The notes beneath the pieces were generated by a model. The model did no database searches and had not been told where the DNA came from. It worked only from the letters and a program-made list of their open reading frames with translations. The position numbers and the translations under genes are program-made. Below are positions 6,625-64,000 of a DNA stretch of 64,000 nucleotides, piece after piece. Position 1 is the stretch's first letter. The number at the start of each line of letters is the position of its first letter. Origin of the DNA: Opitutia bacterium (lineage in GTDB: Bacteria > Verrucomicrobiota > Verrucomicrobiia > Opitutales > Seribacteraceae); the NCBI GenBank assembly GCA_002686835.1, contig NYYP01000023.1:1-64000 (forward strand), read 5' to 3'.

Positions 6625-8145
6625 TCAGGAAGGTTTATATCCCTGGGGAAGGTAGCTAATTTCGCGATCATTGGGAACGGCTTTTCCCGGTGTGCAACGG
6701 CCGTTACTGACTTCTTTTTCAAGCAGTTCCAATAGCTCTTTTACTTTCTTGGGTTTCTTAGTGAATAGATTGTTTTGCTCTGCTTTGTCCCTGTTAAGAT
6801 CAAACAGCTGCATGGGGGGCAACCCGGCCTTTCTTGCACCAGCTTCATTTGGTTGGCTCCAGCCGCCACTACCCGCTGACAGACAAAGTTTCCAATTGTT
6901 TTTACGAATAGCAAAAGATCCATCGATAGAATGACTAACCAAGGTGCTTCTTTGATTCTTTTGTTTGCCATCAAACAATGGCAATAAACTAAATGAGTCC
7001 TCTCCGGCCTGGTCGTCCATTTTCTTGCCGATTATACCTGCAAGGGTTGAGTATAGATCGGTCAGGCAAACCAAAGCCTTGCTGTGTTGTCCACGGTTGA
7101 TCCTGTTGGGCCAGCGGGCAATAAGAGGAACGCGGTGTCCACCTTCATGTATATCTGACTTGGATCCACGATATCCGCCACTCGGATCATGTCCAAAACT
7201 TTTGAGTTTCGGAAAATTAGCCTCCCGAGAACATCCATTATCACTGGTGAAAAAGACCAGCGTGTTGTCATCCATACCGGCACTTTTTAAGGCTTTGAAT
7301 AAATCACCCATATGATGATCCACTTGCATGACGAAGTCTGCATAGGGGTTCATCTTGCTCATTCCTTTGAAAGGAGGAACTGGCACAATCGGAGTATGCG
7401 GAGCGGGGAGGGGAAGATAGAGGAAAAAAGGTTTATTCTCATTTGCCCGCTCTTTTATGTAAGCAATACTTTTGTCAAACAGATGGGGAAGTACCTGATC
7501 GATTTCAAAATCGGGGGCAATTGGTCCATTCCTGTACCACCCATATGGATCTTTATTTTTATGTACTCCTTCTTCGCGATTGGGTATTGCGGTTGGTCGA
7601 CCGGTGTCCACCCAGACATACGGAGGCATATCCAGGGAACCACAATGTCCATAGTAATTGGTAAATCCATTGATATCCGGACCATTTTTGACCGGCTTGG
7701 AAAAATTGATGTTTTGCCAGCCGTTACCTGTCCGGTCCCAGTCCCAACCGAGGTGCCATTTGCCAATCATCTGGGTGTGGTATCCTGCTTTTTTTAATAG
7801 ATGCCCAACGGTTGCCCGACTTGCAGGAATTAAATGCTTACTGGTTCCGCCGAGTACTCCTCGGGCAAGACGCGACCTCCAGTTATAACGGCCTGTCAGC
7901 ACACCATAGCGGGTGGGTGTGCAAACGGAACTGGAGGTGTGGGCATCATGAAAAGTGAGCCCCTCATCCGCCATCTTTTGCAGGTGTGGAGTTTTGATTT
8001 TACAATCTTTATTGGTCGGAGAGACATCGCCGATCCCCAGATCGTCCGCTAGTACAAAGATGACATTAGGGTGATTGGTAGCTTCCGTGTTCCCGATAAG
8101 AAAACTAACCAAAGTAAAAAATAAAAATGAATATATGATTTTCAT
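6625..8145 (-). CDS. secreted sulfatase (FGly type, CTPTR motif)
   Basis: This is an S1-family formylglycine sulfatase that hydrolyses sulfate esters, probably on sulfated algal polysaccharides or glycans. A Sec signal peptide covers about residues 1-22 (IIYSFLFFTLVSFLIG). The mature protein starts with the metal-binding NVIFVLADDLG (DD near 34-35), followed by the maturation motif SSVCTPTRYGVLTGRY with the Cys near residue 75 to be converted to formylglycine. GKWHLGW and TSDNGCSREA complete the active site. Length of 506 residues is normal. It is transcribed divergently from the second sulfatase across a 148-bp gap. Substrate cannot be assigned. No sulfatase-maturing enzyme lies in the window. 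Confidence 0.93.
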   Translation of the reverse strand: MKIIYSFLFFTLVSFLIGNTEATNHPNVIFVLADDLGIGDVSPTNKDCKIKTPHLQKMADEGLTFHDAHTSSSVCTPTRYGVLTGRYNWRSRLARGVLGGTSKHLIPASRATVGHLLKKAGYHTQMIGKWHLGWDWDRTGNGWQNINFSKPVKNGPDINGFTNYYGHCGSLDMPPYVWVDTGRPTAIPNREEGVHKNKDPYGWYRNGPIAPDFEIDQVLPHLFDKSIAYIKERANENKPFFLYLPLPAPHTPIVPVPPFKGMSKMNPYADFVMQVDHHMGDLFKALKSAGMDDNTLVFFTSDNGCSREANFPKLKSFGHDPSGGYRGSKSDIHEGGHRVPLIARWPNRINRGQHSKALVCLTDLYSTLAGIIGKKMDDQAGEDSFSLLPLFDGKQKNQRSTLVSHSIDGSFAIRKNNWKLCLSAGSGGWSQPNEAGARKAGLPPMQLFDLNRDKAEQNNLFTKKPKKVKELLELLEKEVSNGRCTPGKAVPNDREISYLPQGYKPS

Positions 8146-8293
8146 GAAAAATAAAATTGGCTGATAAGTTTGAATTTACCCTGAATGAACTCATTGTTTT
8201 ATCCAACTAAGAAGTCTTAGATTCGTTAAAAATAATTTTCAACCAAGCTAGAATCTCCTCGAAAGATTAAGGGAGTGTATCAATATAAGTTAC

Positions 8294-9682
8294 ATGAAAT
8301 TGAATCAAATAATTCCTAGTGTTGAAAGGTTTATACTCCCTCTTTTGTGTTTGGTGCTTCCGTCCTTTTTAACCGCTCAGGAAAATACGAACCTGAATGT
8401 AATCGTTATTTTTACCGATGATCAGGGATACCAGGACCTTGGTTGCTTTGGTTCCCCTGATATACGCACGCCCCGTATTGATCAGATGGCAAAAGAAGGG
8501 ATGCGGTTGACCAGTTTTTATTCGGCCAATCCGGTATGCTCGGCGTCCCGCGCAGCCTTGCTGACAGGTTGCTACCCCAAACGGGTGCTCGCGGAAAAGA
8601 CAGTTCTTTTCCCCCGGGACAGGGAGGGACTCAATCCTGCAGAGACAACCATCGCAGACATGTTTAAAGAAGCCGGTTATGCAACCGCTTGCGTAGGCAA
8701 GTGGCACCTGGGTCACCATCCAGAATTTTTACCTACCCGCCAGGGATTCGATTCCTACTTTGGAATTCCTTATTCCAATGACATGAGCCATCCTGAGGGA
8801 ACCAAGCGCCCGAAATACGGACAATGGGACACTTACTGGAAGGATCGTCAAAGCAGTGCTCTATGGAAAACACCCCTGTTGAGGGATGAAGAAATTATCG
8901 AGCACCCAGTGGATCAAAGAATGATTACCCGACGCTATACCGATGAGGCTCTTTCCTTTATCCGTAAATCAAACGAACAATCTAAACCTTTCTTTTTGTA
9001 TCTCGCCCATAGTATGCCCCATGTTCCGTTGTATTTACCGGACACCCTGCACGATCCAAAATCACCTTATCCATACAGAGATGTGATTGAGCATATCGAT
9101 GAACAGGTTGGAAGGATTATAGACTTACTTGGCCAACTTCGGCTTACCCAAAACACCCTGGTAGTTTATACCTCGGACAATGGTCCATGGTTACGCTTTA
9201 AACATCATGGCGGGCAGGCACTTCCTTTGAGAGAAGGGAAGGGCACCACCTTTGAGGGAGGAATGCGGGTGCCCTGTGTGGTCTGGGGACCAGGAAGAAT
9301 ACAGGCAGGCTCAAAGTCAGACGAAATGATGTCCACCATCGATCTGTTGCCTACATTCTCCTCGTTGGCTGGGGTAAAGTTAAAAACCAATGGACCCATA
9401 GACGGACTGGATCAATCGGCTATGATTTTGGGCAATGGCCCCACTGTCCGTAATGAATTTTTATACTATGCCAGGAATCTGCAGGCGTTTAGGCAGGGAA
9501 ATTATAAGCTGCGTAAGATGGGTAAGTCTGTGCAGTTGTACGATCTATCCAAAGACATTGGAGAAAAAGAAAACCTGGCCGGCCAAAAGCCTGAGCTTGC
9601 CCAAAAACTTATTGCGAGAATGTCACAGTTGGACGAGGAAGTAACCTCAGGGATGAGGCCGATTGGCAGTCTGAAGCAATAA
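8294..9682 (+). CDS. secreted sulfatase (FGly type, CSASR motif)
   Basis: This second S1-family sulfatase has 462 residues and a signal peptide (LPLLCLVLPSFLTAQ, about residues 15-29). Metal and active-site motifs are NVIVIFTDDQGYQDLG and GKWHLGHH, with YTSDNGPWL further on. The formylglycine motif is NPVCSASRAALLTG, with Cys near residue 82. It has Ala where Pro is usual (C-x-A-x-R), a known tolerated variant. It is only distantly similar to the divergent neighbour, so the pair likely acts on different linkages of one substrate. The 3' end is convergent with the HDAC-like gene (15-bp gap). Confidence 0.93.
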   Translation: MKLNQIIPSVERFILPLLCLVLPSFLTAQENTNLNVIVIFTDDQGYQDLGCFGSPDIRTPRIDQMAKEGMRLTSFYSANPVCSASRAALLTGCYPKRVLAEKTVLFPRDREGLNPAETTIADMFKEAGYATACVGKWHLGHHPEFLPTRQGFDSYFGIPYSNDMSHPEGTKRPKYGQWDTYWKDRQSSALWKTPLLRDEEIIEHPVDQRMITRRYTDEALSFIRKSNEQSKPFFLYLAHSMPHVPLYLPDTLHDPKSPYPYRDVIEHIDEQVGRIIDLLGQLRLTQNTLVVYTSDNGPWLRFKHHGGQALPLREGKGTTFEGGMRVPCVVWGPGRIQAGSKSDEMMSTIDLLPTFSSLAGVKLKTNGPIDGLDQSAMILGNGPTVRNEFLYYARNLQAFRQGNYKLRKMGKSVQLYDLSKDIGEKENLAGQKPELAQKLIARMSQLDEEVTSGMRPIGSLKQ

Positions 9683-55850: not shown

Positions 55851-57362
55851 ATGAATTTTATTGGAATCGATGTTGGCACCTCTTCAATCAAGGCGTTATT
55901 GGTTGGCCCGAATGGCAATGTTCTTGCCACTAGCAATCCGGAATATCCCTTTCAAACTCCTGCTCCACTCTGTGCTGAGACCGACCCAGATGTTTGGTGG
56001 GATGCAACCTGTAGAGCTTTACGGGAATTACTACAGTCCGTTGACTCAGGATCAATATCCGGAATTGGTTTAACAGGGCAGATGCACGGTCTTGTCCTGC
56101 TTGATGAAAAGGGTTTACCCCTTCGCCCCTGTATCATGTGGAACGATCAACGTTCTTTTCAGGAATGTGAAGAAATGACTGAAAAGATAGGGGCCGCGGA
56201 GGTTTTACGAATCACAGGTAACCCCATTCTTGCGGGATTTACTGCCCCAAAATTGCGGTGGGTGGAAAAAAATGAGCCTGAAATTTTTGCAAGAATATCA
56301 AAGGTATTATTGCCCAAGGATTTTATCCGTTATCGATTGACCGGAGAGTTTTATTCCGAAATGTCAGACGCATCCGGTACCTCAATGCTTAATGTTGGTG
56401 AGAGGAAGTGGTCAGAGGAAATCCTCGCAGCGATGGGATGGCCAAAGGCATGGTTGCCAGAACTTACCGAATCTACGGTGGCGTCTGCAAAGGTTTCACC
56501 GGATGCAAGCGAGCTAACCGGCTTAGCAGTAGACACCCCGGTGATTGCTGGAGGAGGAGATCAGGCAGCTCAGGCAGTAGGGTGTGGAATTGTTCATGAG
56601 GGAATGGTATCAGCAACTCTGGGGACCAGTGGGGTGGTATTTGCACAAAGTGATCAATACCGCGTAGAGCCAGAAGGCAAACTGCATGCATTTTGCCATG
56701 CCGTTCCTGGAAAGTGGCATCTAATGGGAGTCATGCTTTCTGCAGCCGGTTCTTTCCAGTGGTACAAGAATCAACTGGGCAAGGAGGAACAAGTAAGGGA
56801 AGAATGTGGGGAAGGGAATGCCTATGATTTATTAACTCAATCAGCGACCACTGTTGATCCTGGCTGTGAGGGCTTAGTTTTTCTGCCCTATCTTTCCGGC
56901 GAGCGTACTCCTTATCCAGACCCTCATGCCCGGGGAGCTTTTGTCGGCATGACCTTGCGACATAGTAAAGCGCATTTAACCCGTGCGGTTTTGGAGGGAG
57001 TTAGTTATGGCCTTAAGGATTCTCTTTCTCTGATGCAGGAATTAGGGATTCGGCCATCAAAAATTATTTTGTCTGGCGGAGGCGCAAGGTCAGAACTTTG
57101 GAAACAAATGCTGGCAGATATCTTTGAAACATCCTGTTGCCTGGTAAATGCCACCGAGGGAGCAGCTTATGGTGCGGCACTTCTTGCTGCAGTTGGTTGT
57201 GGATCACTTCCTAGTGTGGAAGATGCATCCAGGGAGTGGATAAGGGAAACCGAACAGGTTGAAACGGGGCCTAATTTTTCAGAATATAAGAAAAATTATG
57301 GTATCTATCAGGATTTATATCCTGCACTGAAAAAAACATTTTATAATCTTTCCGAGGAATGA
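55851..57362 (+). CDS. xylB: xylulokinase-type FGGY carbohydrate kinase
   Basis: This 503-residue FGGY kinase phosphorylates D-xylulose or a related ketose. The ATPase fold starts FIGIDVGTSSIKALLVG. GLTGQMHGLVLLDEKGLPLRPCIMWNDQRS matches XylB closely. ATLGTSGVVFA, LPYLSGERTPYPDPHARGAFVG and LSGGGARSELWKQMLADIF follow. With the ABC importer, SDR and lactonase upstream it forms a pentose or polyol module. The methyltransferase gene starts on its stop codon (ATGA). Confidence 0.9.
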   Translation: MNFIGIDVGTSSIKALLVGPNGNVLATSNPEYPFQTPAPLCAETDPDVWWDATCRALRELLQSVDSGSISGIGLTGQMHGLVLLDEKGLPLRPCIMWNDQRSFQECEEMTEKIGAAEVLRITGNPILAGFTAPKLRWVEKNEPEIFARISKVLLPKDFIRYRLTGEFYSEMSDASGTSMLNVGERKWSEEILAAMGWPKAWLPELTESTVASAKVSPDASELTGLAVDTPVIAGGGDQAAQAVGCGIVHEGMVSATLGTSGVVFAQSDQYRVEPEGKLHAFCHAVPGKWHLMGVMLSAAGSFQWYKNQLGKEEQVREECGEGNAYDLLTQSATTVDPGCEGLVFLPYLSGERTPYPDPHARGAFVGMTLRHSKAHLTRAVLEGVSYGLKDSLSLMQELGIRPSKIILSGGGARSELWKQMLADIFETSCCLVNATEGAAYGAALLAAVGCGSLPSVEDASREWIRETEQVETGPNFSEYKKNYGIYQDLYPALKKTFYNLSEE

Positions 57363-58117
57363 CTGCAGGTATGGCAAACGAGGGAGCGAGCCAGGTATAT
57401 GAATCGGATCGCTCTTTGGGAGAATACCTGCTTTTTCACTATGGCTCCGATGATGAGCAATTTCCTTGGCAGGAAGGTCCGGGAGAAGCCCTGGGTTTTC
57501 CCAGGCGAAGTGTGGAAGAACTAATTGATTGGGAATCTTCGGTTGGAAGTGCGTTGGATCTTGGGTGTGCGGTTGGGAAAAGTAGTTTTGTACTTTCTGA
57601 GATTGCTCAAGAAGTGGTTGGTATTGACTTTTCAAAATCTTTCATAGGTGCGGCACAATCCATTCTGCAAAACGGAAAATTATGCTACCAATATCATGAA
57701 GAGGGCACCCGCTGGAAAGAAGGTGTGGTTACCATTGAACATATACCCCAAAACCTGACCTTTGAGGTTGGGGATGCCTGTAATTTGCGGGAGGACATGA
57801 AACCTTTCGATTTGTTGCATGCAGCCAACCTGCTCTGTCGTTTACCAGACCCAATGAGTTTGCTTACCCGTTTGCCTGATCTGGTTGTTCCAGGAGGGCA
57901 GTTAATCCTTACCACTCCCTTTACCTGGCTCGAGGAGTTTACTCCCCGGGAGAAATGGCTCAATGGGGAAGAATCAGGACGTGGCTTAATCAAGGTGCTC
58001 AATCAATCATTTGATTTGGAACTGGAAAAAAATCTTCCCTTTCTTATCCGAGAACATCGTAGAAAGTTCCAATACACAGTTGCCCTGGGTATGCGATGGA
58101 GAAGGAGGAAGTCTTGA
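57359..58117 (+). CDS. stand-alone OvoA-type methyltransferase (4-mercaptohistidine N1-methyltransferase-like)
   Basis: This 252-residue SAM methyltransferase matches the C-terminal domain of OvoA, which methylates 4-mercaptohistidine in ovothiol synthesis. Diagnostic stretches are YESDRSLGEYLLFHYG, EALGFPRRSVEELIDW, the SAM loop ALDLGCAVGKSSFVLSE, VVGIDFSKSFIGAAQ, LLHAANLLCRLPDP and PFTWLEEFTPREKWL. OvoA usually has an N-terminal sulfoxide synthase, which is absent here and elsewhere in the window. It overlaps the xylB stop by ATGA and the next start codon by TGATG. Ovothiol activity is an inference; a related small-molecule substrate is possible. Confidence 0.78.
   Translation: MTAGMANEGASQVYESDRSLGEYLLFHYGSDDEQFPWQEGPGEALGFPRRSVEELIDWESSVGSALDLGCAVGKSSFVLSEIAQEVVGIDFSKSFIGAAQSILQNGKLCYQYHEEGTRWKEGVVTIEHIPQNLTFEVGDACNLREDMKPFDLLHAANLLCRLPDPMSLLTRLPDLVVPGGQLILTTPFTWLEEFTPREKWLNGEESGRGLIKVLNQSFDLELEKNLPFLIREHRRKFQYTVALGMRWRRRKS
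58102..58109 (+). promoter_or_regulatory. strong Shine-Dalgarno site fixing the start of the 97-aa protein
   Basis: AAGGAGGA lies 7 bp before the ATG at 58117 and inside the end of the methyltransferase gene. It is one of few strong ribosome-binding sites in the window and supports ATG 58117 over the ORF-track ATG at 58096. Confidence 0.7.
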
Positions 58118-58410
58118 TGAAAGCTGCCGAATTTCTACATTCGATCGAATCAGATCCCCAGCCAGATTCTACCCTATGTGTTGAGTTGCAGGCTTTGTGG
58201 TGGGTCAAGAAAGGAGACTGGGAAAGAGCCCATGATCTTGCTCAGGATGCCGGAAGTATGGAGGGCGACTGGATTCATGCCTATCTTCATCGTGTGGAGG
58301 GCGATCTGGGAAATGCTTCCTACTGGTACTCTCGTGCTGGGAAGCCTGTCTGCAGACAAGAGTTATCCACAGAATGGCAAAATATAATGGTTGAAGTACT
58401 CGATAAATGA
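58117..58410 (+). CDS. small conserved hypothetical protein, 97 aa
   Basis: This is a short helical protein whose core, LQALWWVKKGDWERAHDLAQDAGSMEGDWIHAYLHRVEGDLGNASYWYSRAGKPVCRQEL, is a conserved signature I have seen in uncharacterised bacterial proteins. It resembles a single TPR-like helix pair. I start it at ATG 58117, not 58096, because AGGAGG sits correctly before it. Its ATG overlaps the methyltransferase stop (TGATG) and its stop overlaps the rodA start (ATGA), so it is translationally linked to both. No function is known to me. Confidence 0.75.
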   Translation: MKAAEFLHSIESDPQPDSTLCVELQALWWVKKGDWERAHDLAQDAGSMEGDWIHAYLHRVEGDLGNASYWYSRAGKPVCRQELSTEWQNIMVEVLDK

Positions 58411-59627
58411 GTGAACATTCTGCCTCTTTAGATAAAGATTTTCTTATTCGAAAAGAAAATACCTGGGATTGGGTCACTCCCATTTGCCTGCTTGTTTTGA
58501 GTATAATGAGTGTGGTGTTTATTCATTCAGCCCAGGCATATGGGGGGGGCAATTATTGGAAAATGCAGATTGTATGGTGTGTTATTGGATTTTCTCTCTA
58601 CGGGGCGGTATCGGTTATCAATTACCAGCTATGGATGAGATATGCTCATATCTTTTATTTTTTGGTACTCATTGGGTTACTACTGGTTTTTGCAGGTCCC
58701 ACGATTTATGGTGCCAGAAGATGGATTGATTTTGGGTTATTTAAAGTGCAGCCATCTGAGGTTGCAAAATGGTCTACCATGATATTTGGAGCCAGTTTAC
58801 TGGCTCGTTCAAAGGTTGGGGATATGCAGGATTCCCTCAAAGGAATACTAAAAGTGGCTGCCTGTTTTGGCTTGCCAATGTTCTTGATTTTTTTACAGCC
58901 GGATTTAGGCTCTACTATGGTTTTCCCACCTATTGCATTTTCACTTTTATACGTCGCCCGCATGCCAACTAAATTTTTTGTTTCTACGTTTGTCGTATTC
59001 GTAGTTTTGCTTGGTTTGTTGAGCTTCGATTTATTTCATTACTATCAATATAAACTAGAGAATCCAAAACCCTCGGATGCCGTGGTGGCATACGAGGAAA
59101 CCTCATTACTTCCTCTCAAGGATTATCAACGCAAACGCATTCTTACCTTTGTTGCGCCCGAAGTAGAAGACCCACACGGTGTGGGCTCCAACTGGAATCG
59201 CATCCAAGCTCTTATCGCAGTAGCCACTGGTGGTTTATCCGGTAAAGGGTTGGGGGAAGGGATGCAAGCAAAGCTCGGATATTTGCCGACCGCAGTTGCC
59301 CACAATGATTTTATTTTTGCAGTGATTGCGGAAGAATCAGGACTACTTGGTGGTGGTTTGGCGATTGGCATGCTCTGTCTCGTAGTATTTGGTTGCCTAA
59401 GGGTAGCTACAATGGCTGCGGATCGGTTCGGTGCCATGCTTGCTGTTGGAGTTTCCGTCCTTTTGATGACTCATGTATTCATCAATATCGGAATGACCAT
59501 TGGCATTACACCAATCACAGGGCTACCCTTACCATTTTTAAGTTATGGTGGGTCCTTCATGGTGGTGTGCTTCTTGATGCTTGGTATGGTACAGAGTGTT
59601 TTTCGTTACCGAAACACCGTGCTATGA
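58407..59627 (+). CDS. rodA: rod-shape-determining peptidoglycan polymerase RodA (SEDS family)
   Basis: This 406-residue membrane glycosyltransferase polymerises lipid II along the cell wall. About ten helices are visible. SEDS features include GARRWIDFGLFKVQPSEVAKWSTMIFGASLLAR, FLQPDLGSTMVFPPI, the large extracellular loop with RIQALIAVATGGLSGKGLGEGMQAKLGYLPTAVAHNDFIFAVIAEESG, and GITPITGLPLPFLSYGGSFM. It overlaps the 97-residue gene by ATGA. The RNase E/G-family gene follows, an arrangement often seen near mre/rod genes. Confidence 0.94.
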   Translation: MSEHSASLDKDFLIRKENTWDWVTPICLLVLSIMSVVFIHSAQAYGGGNYWKMQIVWCVIGFSLYGAVSVINYQLWMRYAHIFYFLVLIGLLLVFAGPTIYGARRWIDFGLFKVQPSEVAKWSTMIFGASLLARSKVGDMQDSLKGILKVAACFGLPMFLIFLQPDLGSTMVFPPIAFSLLYVARMPTKFFVSTFVVFVVLLGLLSFDLFHYYQYKLENPKPSDAVVAYEETSLLPLKDYQRKRILTFVAPEVEDPHGVGSNWNRIQALIAVATGGLSGKGLGEGMQAKLGYLPTAVAHNDFIFAVIAEESGLLGGGLAIGMLCLVVFGCLRVATMAADRFGAMLAVGVSVLLMTHVFINIGMTIGITPITGLPLPFLSYGGSFMVVCFLMLGMVQSVFRYRNTVL

Positions 59628-59690
59628 AATCATTTTTTGCAGAGATGTACTTTGATCGGTTGAGGTTTGGATTTTCCAACATCTCTAATC

Positions 59691-61466
59691 ATGGCCAGAA
59701 GAAACAGGCGTAAACTCGCATCCAAAAATAATTCAAAACACGCAGATAAAAACAATCAGGGTGATGCTTTACCCGAGAATGATTTAAGTTCTGCTCCCCA
59801 GGAAAAGCCCCCTATCTTAATTGATAAAAAGGAATTAAGGGACTCGGCACTTGAACGGGCTAAGAACCGACCTATTCGTGAGCGAATAATGGCTTTTTTC
59901 CGCAGGGAAAAAAATCAGGATTACAAGGAAATTATCATTAATACTGAAGCCCTGGAGCGCAGGGTTGCAATGATGGAGAATGGAATTCTCCAAGCCTTCG
60001 ATATCGAACGCTTAGACAAGGACCGAATGGTCGGGGCAATCTTCAAAGGCAAGGTGCAAAACCTTGAGGCTGGGCTGAAAGCGGCGTTCGTAGATATTGG
60101 TCAGGAGAAAAATGCATTTTTGCACTACTGGGACATGTTGCCCGGTGCAAATAATGACCCATCTGTTGAGATCGTTCGAGAGAACAAGAAGAAATCGAGT
60201 GGTAAAAATGAAGCAAAATCTGTCGGGGATATACCGCGAGTTTTTCCGATTGGTTCAGAAATTGTGGTTCAAATCACAAAAGCCCAGATTGGTAGTAAAG
60301 GTCCACGGACCACAACTAACCTATCTTTACCAGGTCGATTTTTGGTACTTATGCCCTATGCTGGCCAATGTGGAATCTCCCGCAAAATTGAGGATCGTGC
60401 GGAGAGAAAAAGACTGAAGCGTATAATCGGGAATCTATCCTTGCGCGAGGGTATGGGCGTGATTATACGCACGGTTGGTCAGAATAAACCCGAGCGTTTT
60501 TTCGTGAGGGATTTACATATTCTCATGCAGCAATGGGATCAAATTGAAGCCCGGATCAAAAACGAAAAAGACCCCTGTTTACTCTATGAAGAACCAGACT
60601 TGATCGGATTAACTGCTCGTGATTTTCTGACCGACGATGTCGATCGTGTACAGATTGATAATCGCAATGACTACACCCGCCTGATCGAGACTATCCAAAG
60701 AATTTCCCCAAAGTCGAAGGCGAAAGTGGCTTTATTTGAAGAGGAAATCCCGATTTTTCAAAGATTTAATGTCGAGCGACAGATTGAACAGACATTTATG
60801 AGGCGGGTGAAACTCCCTTCCGGTGGAGAAATTGTGATGGAAGAGACCGAGGCACTGGTGTCAATCGACATCAATACAGGTAGTCACAAGGGTAACCGTA
60901 AAGATGGCAAAAACTTCATTTTACAAGCCAATTTAGAAGCGGCTGTGGAAGTCGCCCGGCAAATGAGGTTACGCAATCTTGGCGGACTGGTCATTATTGA
61001 TTTTATCGACATGAAAAACCGTGGCGACCAGCGCAAGGTGTTTCAAAAGATGAAAAACGCGATGTCAGACGACAAAGCGAAGCATAATATTTTACCGATT
61101 TCAGAGCTCGGGATTATGCAAATCACTCGTCAAAGGCACGATGAGAGCAATGCGAGTGGAGTTTACGAATCCTGCCCCTATTGCAAAGGGCGTGGAATTA
61201 TTAAGTCACCCCGCTCAGTGAGTATCGAGATTCAGAGATTAGTATCCAGTGCCGTCAGACGGGTAAAAGCAGAAACTCAACAGTCTATCAAATTAAAGGT
61301 ATATTTACACCCGTCGGTGCTGCGCAGATTACGCGGGCCGGATGCATCGCTACTCACTAAGCTGGAAAAAAACTATGATTTACAAATTAGTTTTGAAGGT
61401 GCGGAGAGCTATCACATGGAAAATTATAAAGTGGTGGACGAGTCCACCCAGAAAGAAATTCGCTAA
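59691..61466 (+). CDS. rng: RNase E/G family ribonuclease
   Basis: This endoribonuclease has an N-terminal basic tail, then an S1 domain split by an insertion ([34 protein letters not shown]). The catalytic core carries [54 protein letters not shown], with the magnesium-site aspartates. The zinc-link CPYCKGRG follows. Length of ~592 residues, without the RNase E degradosome tail, suits RNase G or a short RNase E. I start it at ATG 59691 (MARRNRRK); the ORF track adds eight codons from a TTG. It follows rodA by 63 bp. Confidence 0.93.
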
Positions 61467-61482
61467 TCTGTAATCTTATCTC

Positions 61483-63231
61483 ATGCGTGTCCTTGCAGCC
61501 TTTGATAAATTCAAGGATTCTTTCTCAGCGGAACAGGCGTGCTCATTGGTTGAGAGTACAGCTGGTGAGTTCTCTCCAAATGTAGAAGTTGTTTCATGTC
61601 CGCTTACGGATGGGGGAGAAGGTTTCGTCGACATTCTAATCAGTAAATGCCGTGGAGACTTAATTGAGGTAAAAGCGAGAGACTCTTTGGGCAGACCCCG
61701 AGAGGCAGCCGTGGGAATGGTTCCCATTGATCAATTGAGCAACGAAGTTCGTTCGTTGTTGGGCCTTCCTGAGTCTGGGAAACTTGCAATCATTGAAATG
61801 GCTTCGGTCTGTGGACTGGGCGATCTTGATCTTGCACAAAGAGATCCCTGGAATACTACAACCCTTGGCATTGGAGACCTACTCCTTTTTGGGAAGGAAC
61901 AAAAAGCAGACTTTATCCTTCTTGGCATTGGGGGGAGTTCGACAAATGATGCTGGGATAGGTGCCTTGTGTGCTTTGGGGTTGGCATTAAAGAAAGCCTC
62001 AGGGGAATCGGTTGACTATCCCAGTCCAAGTACCTGGGCAGATATTGCAACTTGGGATAGATCTTCCATTGTAAGCCTACCTCCTTTGATTATTGCGTGC
62101 GATGTAGATAACCCGCTGCTTGGCAGCGAGGGTGCAACTGCTCAATTTGGCCCCCAGAAAGGCTTGCCACCTGAAAGTGTTGCCCCTCTCGAAAATGCGA
62201 TGAATGAAATGGTTGTCCAATTGGAAAAAGTATTTCCTCATGCTTCTGCCTTGGCCAAATCCCCTGGTGCAGGAGCTGCGGGTGGAATCGGTTTTGGTTT
62301 GTCGTTGGTGGGTGAAGTTAAACTTGTACAAGGGTTTGAGTTGGTTTCCCAATGGTTGAGTCTAAAGAAGGAAGTGAATGAATCGGATTTAATTTTAACA
62401 GGAGAGGGCCGTTTTGACTCTACTTCCTGGCGAGGCAAAGGCCCATTTGAAATTCTATCTATGGCCAAACGGGCTAATAAAAAAGCAATTCTTTTGTGTG
62501 GTTCGCTCGATCCACATTTGGAGCGAAAAACGCAGGAGGAGTTTCCCAATCACAAGTTTATTCCTTTTGCTAAAAGTTCATGGAAATTGGCAAAAAACCT
62601 CAAGCATGGTCCCAAATTATTCAGGGAAGCCTGTCGCAATATTTTTGAAGACCTGTTCAAGGGTACTAGCTTAGAGTGTCCTATTGTTAAAGAAGCAAGA
62701 TTTAAGAGGATTCGTAGGTTAAAGAAGTTTCTGCGGCCTTTACCCCGAAGATCCAATGTTCACCGGTATCCAGTTCTAAAGTGGTTTGCGGATACTGCAT
62801 ACCAAAGATCATTTCTTTGGTCCTTTAAGGGAGGGCCTATACAAGCTGCCCTATTTTGGGGTATCTGGATTTCGATGCTTCCCATTGTTGGGATCCAAAT
62901 GATTGTCGTATTTTTTGTTTCGCTGTTTGTTCGTGCTAATTTGCCTCTAATTGTGGCACTGCAATGGATATCCAATCCTCTGACTATGGGCCCGATCTAT
63001 TTTGCAGATTATAAAATAGGTATGACTCTGTTGAAGTTGATCGGGGTGAGTTATCCAAAAAATAAGTTGCTTAGCCCAGAATATGATTGGGCTGAGTTCT
63101 CATATAAAGAGTTACTCAGACTGATTGATACTTTTCCACCGATGTTTTTAGGTGGATCTGTTTTGGGTATCTCTTTTGGTGTTTCCACGGTCTTTCTTTA
63201 CAAAATTTTGAGGAAGTTCTACAAAAATTGA
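61483..63231 (+). CDS. glycerate kinase fused to a C-terminal DUF2062 membrane domain
   Basis: Residues ~1-390 are a GarK/GlxK-type glycerate kinase: [82 protein letters not shown] and [17 protein letters not shown]. From about residue 400 a basic linker leads to a DUF2062 region (about 440-580) with hydrophobic segments near 453-480, 487-505 and 550-575, and [21 protein letters not shown]. One uninterrupted frame joins both halves, so I see no stop or frameshift. The fusion would tether the kinase to the membrane. A role for DUF2062 is unknown. Confidence 0.85.
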
Positions 63232-63245
63232 ATCAGGAATTAAGT

Positions 63246-64000
63246 ATGCATCATATTGTCACAAGGTTTCAGAAATACTTCTCTATTTTATTGGGTCTAA
63301 GCGTTCTCTTCCTTTCGTCCCTTTGCTCATTTGCTGGAACGAAGATCAAACTGGGAATTGATCATTTGGAGGATCTCAATTTTAGCGTTCTTTCCGGGAA
63401 GAGGGTTGGCCTGCTTACTCACCCTGCTGGTGTGAACTCTAGCGGAAGAAGTACAGTGCTTGTATTGCACCACGCTAAAGAGGTTAACCTTGTTTCATTG
63501 TTCGGTCCGGAGCATGGAATTTACGGGGATGAAAAAGCATCGGTGCCAGTTGATGATAAAATCGACCATCGAACCAATTTACCTGTGTATTCACTCTATG
63601 GGAAATTTAGAAAACCAACCCCTAAAATGTTGGCAGATTTGGACTGCCTGGTCGTTGACCTTCAAGATGTCGGAGTCCGTTGTTATACCTATGTGAGTTG
63701 CATGCGTTATGTAATTGAGGCATGCTTTGAAGCGGGGGTGGAAGTCGTGGTTTTGGATAGGCCAAACCCTTTGGGCGGATTAAAAATGGCGGGCCCGATG
63801 ATCGATCGCGAGTGGATCAGTTATGTTGGGGCTTTTCCAATGCCATTTGTTCATGGCATGACAATCGCTGAGCTTGCCCTTTGGTCTAAGAAAACTGCTG
63901 GAATCTTAAAGATTGAAGAATCAGTTCGCAAAAAAGGTAAGCTCACCTTGATTCCCATGAAAGGGTGGAGGAGAAATATGACTTGGCCGAGCACTGGTCT
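63246..64000 (+). CDS. DUF1343 / NamZ-like exo-beta-N-acetylmuramidase family protein (3' truncated)
   Basis: This gene is absent from the ORF track because it runs off the right edge. The ATG at 63246 has AGGA eight to ten bases upstream. A signal peptide ([21 protein letters not shown]) precedes [111 protein letters not shown] and [11 protein letters not shown]. These are the conserved blocks of the DUF1343/NamZ family, which removes N-acetylmuramic acid from peptidoglycan fragments. The 251 codons seen cover roughly the first two-thirds. Confidence 0.9.

Follow-up and report, generated by a model that had tools for sequence, protein, structure and literature searches.

Organisation of the locus

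The window, a stretch of 64,000 nucleotides at the start of contig NYYP01000023.1 of an Opitutia bacterium, holds at positions 61483–63231 a single open frame that runs from the ATG at 61483 to the TGA ending at 63231 and comprises 582 codons. Pfam assigns residues 3–389 of the product to Gly_kinase (E 5.4e-95; 318.9 bits, cut-off 23.3) and residues 438–580 to DUF2062 (PF09835; E 1.1e-25; 90.8 bits, cut-off 27.4; profile positions 6–141 of 147). A first-pass annotation, made from the letters of the DNA and its open reading frames, had described a complete GarK-type kinase running in frame into DUF2062, and both the frame and the two domains are as claimed. In the source genome (2.16 Mb, 46 contigs) DUF2062 and this type of kinase each occur once, namely in the fused gene. 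The AlphaFold model of the full fused protein has a pLDDT of 91.5. Residues 391–450 score 61–78, so that the placement of the kinase relative to DUF2062 is not predicted.

Throughout the family a conserved row of genes is found, namely xylB, a methyltransferase gene, a small ORF, rodA, RNase E/G, glycerate kinase, DUF2062 and namZ, and the fused and the split copies belong to this same operon. Other families of the order have segments of it (rodA, RNase G, kinase and/or DUF2062, namZ). In the window, the genes of the block at 55851–63998 are tightly packed, stop and start overlapping at 57359 and again at 58407, and they travel together across the family. Coordinates are given in Table 1.

Table 1. 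Features of the glycerate kinase–DUF2062 locus; positions refer to the window.
Feature	Position	Strand	Basis
FGGY (xylulokinase-type) gene, first in the conserved block	55851..57362	+	PF00370/PF02782
Methyltransferase gene of the conserved block	57359..58117	+	PF13847 and others
rodA/ftsW-type gene, operon neighbour	58407..59627	+	PF01098
RNase E/G gene, upstream neighbour, 16 bp gap	59667..61466	+	PF10150; order conserved in family
Fused gene, glycerate kinase + DUF2062, 582 aa	61483..63231	+	ORF; Pfam; orthologues fused over their full length at 5 further complete loci of the genus and in G013
Class II glycerate 2-kinase domain (most likely functional), residues 1–393, including native C-terminal helix 376–393	61483..62661	+	Gly_kinase; TIGR00045; 57/57 invariant residues; Foldseek 1to6 and 3cwc
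Junction of ~8 residues (~394–401), GTSLECPI; kinase stop and DUF2062 start lie here in split relatives	62662..62685	+	Junctions of split relatives; alignment by eye
Basic N-terminal region of DUF2062, residues ~402–437	62686..62793	+	Conserved in stand-alone DUF2062 proteins
DUF2062 membrane domain (predicted), residues 438–582	62794..63228	+	PF09835, E 1.1e-25; hydrophobic blocks 453–496 and 554–573; AF2 model, pLDDT 85
namZ (exo-N-acetylmuramidase) gene, downstream neighbour, cut by the window end	63247..63998	+	PF07075; ATG 15 bp past the fusion stop

The fusion is shared by the whole genus

The genus consists of uncultured Opitutales bacteria, and the junction is open in all eight of its genomes. 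Six of them, that of the window included, read through from end to end, and the other five complete fused proteins are 60–71% identical to the window protein. In G001 contig ends cut the locus within the kinase. A frame break inside the kinase near residue 283 was seen in G007 (L028, G007:C4:68000-84000, 7579-8749), where it represents either an assembly error or an early pseudogene; the DUF2062 junction of this copy is open.

Start codons around the junction were inspected relative to the RFKRIRR motif. In the window the stretch that begins 25 residues ahead of the motif and ends 58 residues behind it has no in-frame ATG, GTG or TTG, and the first in-frame start, an ATG, falls within the first hydrophobic helix. 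The same pattern was found in G005, no start is present near the junction in G006, G001 and G007, and in G003, G002 and G004 a TTG or GTG lies 9–17 codons 5' of the motif. Most fused copies thus lack a start from which DUF2062 could be translated, and in these its production as a separate protein is hardly possible.

The assemblies are drafts, and a single-base slip could join the frames in split relatives; an assembly or sequencing artefact linking two genes with an overlap of a few bases therefore had to be considered. We give it next to no credence. The eight assemblies of the genus agree, the junction sequence varies between species yet stays open, and the window, G005, G006, G001 and G007 have no DUF2062 start in the fused frame near the junction. 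A sequencing slip is ruled out by the eight assemblies together with the absence of a DUF2062 start from most fused frames. Neither the frameshift nor the missed stop that the first-pass annotation had considered near position 62680 is present, all eight genomes being open there, and its further concern, that homologues might always occur as two genes, was not borne out, since the genus carries the fusion as a fixed feature. It is real and inherited.

A probable second fusion in a sister genus

The gene is also fused in G013, a species of a sister genus in which the fusion is known from a single assembly. Its junction differs in sequence from that of the genus and contains no alternative start in any frame, except for an ATG inside the conserved body of DUF2062. 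In a tree of seven operon proteins, which takes in both the kinase and the DUF2062 halves themselves, G013 groups with the split G021 and G332 with a support of 100/100. Forcing all fused copies into one clade costs 110 log units (p-AU 0.0003), and at least two changes are required on the tree. In a tree calculated from RodA and RNase G alone, G013 again fell beside G021/G332, but less strongly supported. These sequences are most simply explained by two fusions, and fusion probably happened twice; the alternative, a single fusion that was later undone in G021/G332, would require a stop and a start to arise anew and the frame to shift.

Several candidates for fusions elsewhere were discarded. 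Outside the family, the sequences of G248, G157 and G381 read as two genes; the match in G651 contains a stop. In G323 and G325 the two are in frame but contain a stop. No further fusions were found among the matches listed from 388 genomes of the phylum. Other phyla were covered through a scan with the window protein over one genome per species for 84,980 species, which reaches close relatives only; its only matches were relatives of the same genus.

Loss of the gene boundary

In the rest of the family the kinase and DUF2062 genes are adjacent, separate and on one strand wherever both lie on one contig with a readable boundary. At this boundary they mostly have an ATGA or GTGA stop–start overlap in another frame, or lie a few tens of bases apart. 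In G020 the N-terminus of the separate DUF2062 protein is MTSMECPKEKELRFKRIRR; the fused junction resembles it, and GTSLECP of the fused protein can be aligned by eye with MTSMECP, the start of the stand-alone protein. This resemblance indicates that the boundary was lost with the DUF2062 coding sequence kept whole. Residues ~402–437, which had been taken for a basic linker, are therefore DUF2062's own N-terminus, a region that the stand-alone genes conserve as well. The fusion is the loss of the stop and start at the old gene boundary.

In G325 (L080), G323 (L081), G248 (L082) and G157 (L083), both genes share a frame and are kept apart by no more than a short gap and one or a few stops, so that few changes would fuse them.

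The kinase half

The kinase half matches TIGR00045, the NCBIfam glycerate kinase model, with 282.2 bits (cut-off 168.45). In 42 split kinases from the order and class, 57 columns are invariant to 95% or more. The kinase half of the window has the conserved residue in all 57, and the remaining complete fused copies do so in 55–57. Foldseek superimposed the kinase on 1to6 (E 4.7e-31; TM 0.86 by target) and 3cwc (E 1.3e-31). Within the genus, dN amounts to 0.25–0.47 for the kinase and 0.08–0.16 for DUF2062, with synonymous sites near saturation. With dN well below dS, or dS saturated, in both halves, both are under purifying selection, and DUF2062 more strongly so.

From this conservation the fused kinase is most likely a functional class II glycerate 2-kinase (GarK/GlxK; PF02595, TIGR00045; structures 1to6 and 3cwc). 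It shares the full domain, the conserved motifs and the fold with this class and differs from it in the addition of a C-terminal membrane domain. In E. coli, 2-phosphoglycerate is the product of both glycerate kinases (PMC4378991). A homologue of tartronate semialdehyde reductase, a candidate source of glycerate, is present in the source genome but scores below the equivalog cut-off.

The DUF2062 half

Hydropathy shows a long hydrophobic block at residues 453–496 and another at 554–573, while the AlphaFold2 model of DUF2062 (pLDDT 85) breaks the first block into several helices. The three hydrophobic segments of the first-pass annotation are thus a fair reading of a topology that may differ in detail. 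Ahead of the first block, 15 K+R stand against 3 D+E, and according to the positive-inside rule the N-terminus, and hence the kinase, would be cytosolic.

DUF2062 is 77–86% identical within the fused genus. The median ratio of kinase to DUF2062 distances is 2.2 for fused copies and 1.6 and 2.2 for split ones; as DUF2062 is the more conserved half in fused and split copies alike, the pattern of constraint has not been visibly changed by the fusion.

No relatives of DUF2062 were found in the PDB by sequence or fold, and no description of its function was found in the literature searched. Kinship with the DedA/VTT lipid transporters (PF09335) found no profile support, the hhalign probability being <1% with DUF2062 alignments of 35 and of 117 rows; the idea came from PMC7818093, a paper found for PF09835 whose main text makes no mention of it. 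The gene neighbours of DUF2062 in 60 loci of the class are mixed; elsewhere in the class than at this locus they are scattered, and at most 2–3 of 43 share a family.

Stand-alone DUF2062 proteins (PF09835) occur in bacteria and archaea. The fused copy keeps the whole of such a protein, including the basic N-terminus, but has lost its own start codon and would be made only as the C-terminal half of the kinase fusion. The Brucella type IV effector BspA is also a DUF2062 protein (PMC3738490). The DUF2062 part matches the BspA model NF047382 weakly (21.5 bits, cut-off 300), and there is no reason to expect the same role for the fused DUF2062.

Interpretation of the fusion

When adjacent, co-directional operon genes lose a stop/start overlap, the two products are made as one, at a ratio of 1:1. 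The present case shares the adjacency, the common direction, the lost overlap and the 1:1 product with such fusions in general. What sets it apart is the domain pair: the architecture of kinase plus DUF2062 was not found described in the literature searched. As an event, the fusion is ordinary.

We consider it likely that an ordinary fusion of operon neighbours has given rise to a two-domain, membrane-held glycerate 2-kinase in which DUF2062 keeps its own role. In an old Opitutales operon, the gene for a glycerate 2-kinase would already have been followed directly by that for DUF2062. The stop/start boundary would have been lost in the ancestor of the genus, and apparently again in G013, leaving an obligatory two-domain protein. 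Its N-terminal half would be a class II glycerate 2-kinase in the cytosol, probably active as judged by its conserved residues, and DUF2062, with its own role retained, would attach it to the inner membrane; membrane location and topology are those suggested by hydropathy and charge. The fusion would fix both a 1:1 stoichiometry and the membrane location of the kinase. The proposal of a membrane-tethered glycerate kinase thereby gains support as probable, with a membrane location deduced from the DUF2062 half.

A fixed and apparently repeated fusion offers a handle on the widespread DUF2062 membrane family. As a tag for one side of the membrane, the kinase half could act as a built-in topology reporter for DUF2062. 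Apart from this, the locus shows cleanly how operon neighbours with a stop/start overlap become fused, which is of value chiefly to annotators.

Anchor or functional partner

DUF2062 might be a mere membrane anchor that localises the kinase, if the fusion had deprived it of its own function. The fusion supplies a location for free, and the charge distribution (15 K+R against 3 D+E) would fit a cytosolic kinase. An anchor would, however, be expected to drift, and in the fused genus, as in the split relatives, DUF2062 has changed less than the kinase. This makes the anchor reading highly improbable.

A closer relation was put forward in the first-pass annotation, by which the fusion could couple glycerate phosphorylation to a transport or membrane step. 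On this view glycerate, a phosphoglycerate or a membrane precursor would be moved by DUF2062 and then trapped or fed at the membrane by the kinase fused to it. The conserved adjacency of the two genes in several families of the order agrees with this. Two apparently independent fusions and a long-standing adjacency would also be expected of cooperating proteins, and within Opitutales a weak co-occurrence was obtained (34 genomes with both, 8 with DUF2062 only, 4 with the kinase only, 6 with neither; p=0.016, uncorrected for relatedness). Against it, the families are independent across the class, where among 286 genomes 121 have both, 76 DUF2062 only, 49 the kinase only and 40 neither (Fisher p=0.36). 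Moreover, either one can persist in the operon when its partner is missing: G033 (L049) has kept RNase G–DUF2062–namZ with no match to a glycerate kinase, and G026 (L051) has kept RNase G–kinase–namZ, where the protein search found no DUF2062. The only kinase neighbour in the 60 DUF2062 loci of the class lies in an Opitutales genome, so that the loci examined give no gene link between DUF2062 and glycerate kinase outside the order. The other operon members mostly suggest cell wall and RNA work, not glycerate, and no solved relative of DUF2062 was found.

On balance such coupling is not supported, and we regard it as unlikely. The same low probability is given to its wider form, a membrane-tethered glycerate 2-kinase that cooperates with DUF2062, for example in vectorial phosphorylation or in the metabolic control of an envelope step beside RodA/NamZ, with the fusion having been selected twice. 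The evidence is against a strict link between kinase and DUF2062, while a looser benefit of co-location may exist. G033 and G026 belong to other families of the order, and the operon neighbours stay in place there where the kinase or DUF2062 is missing.
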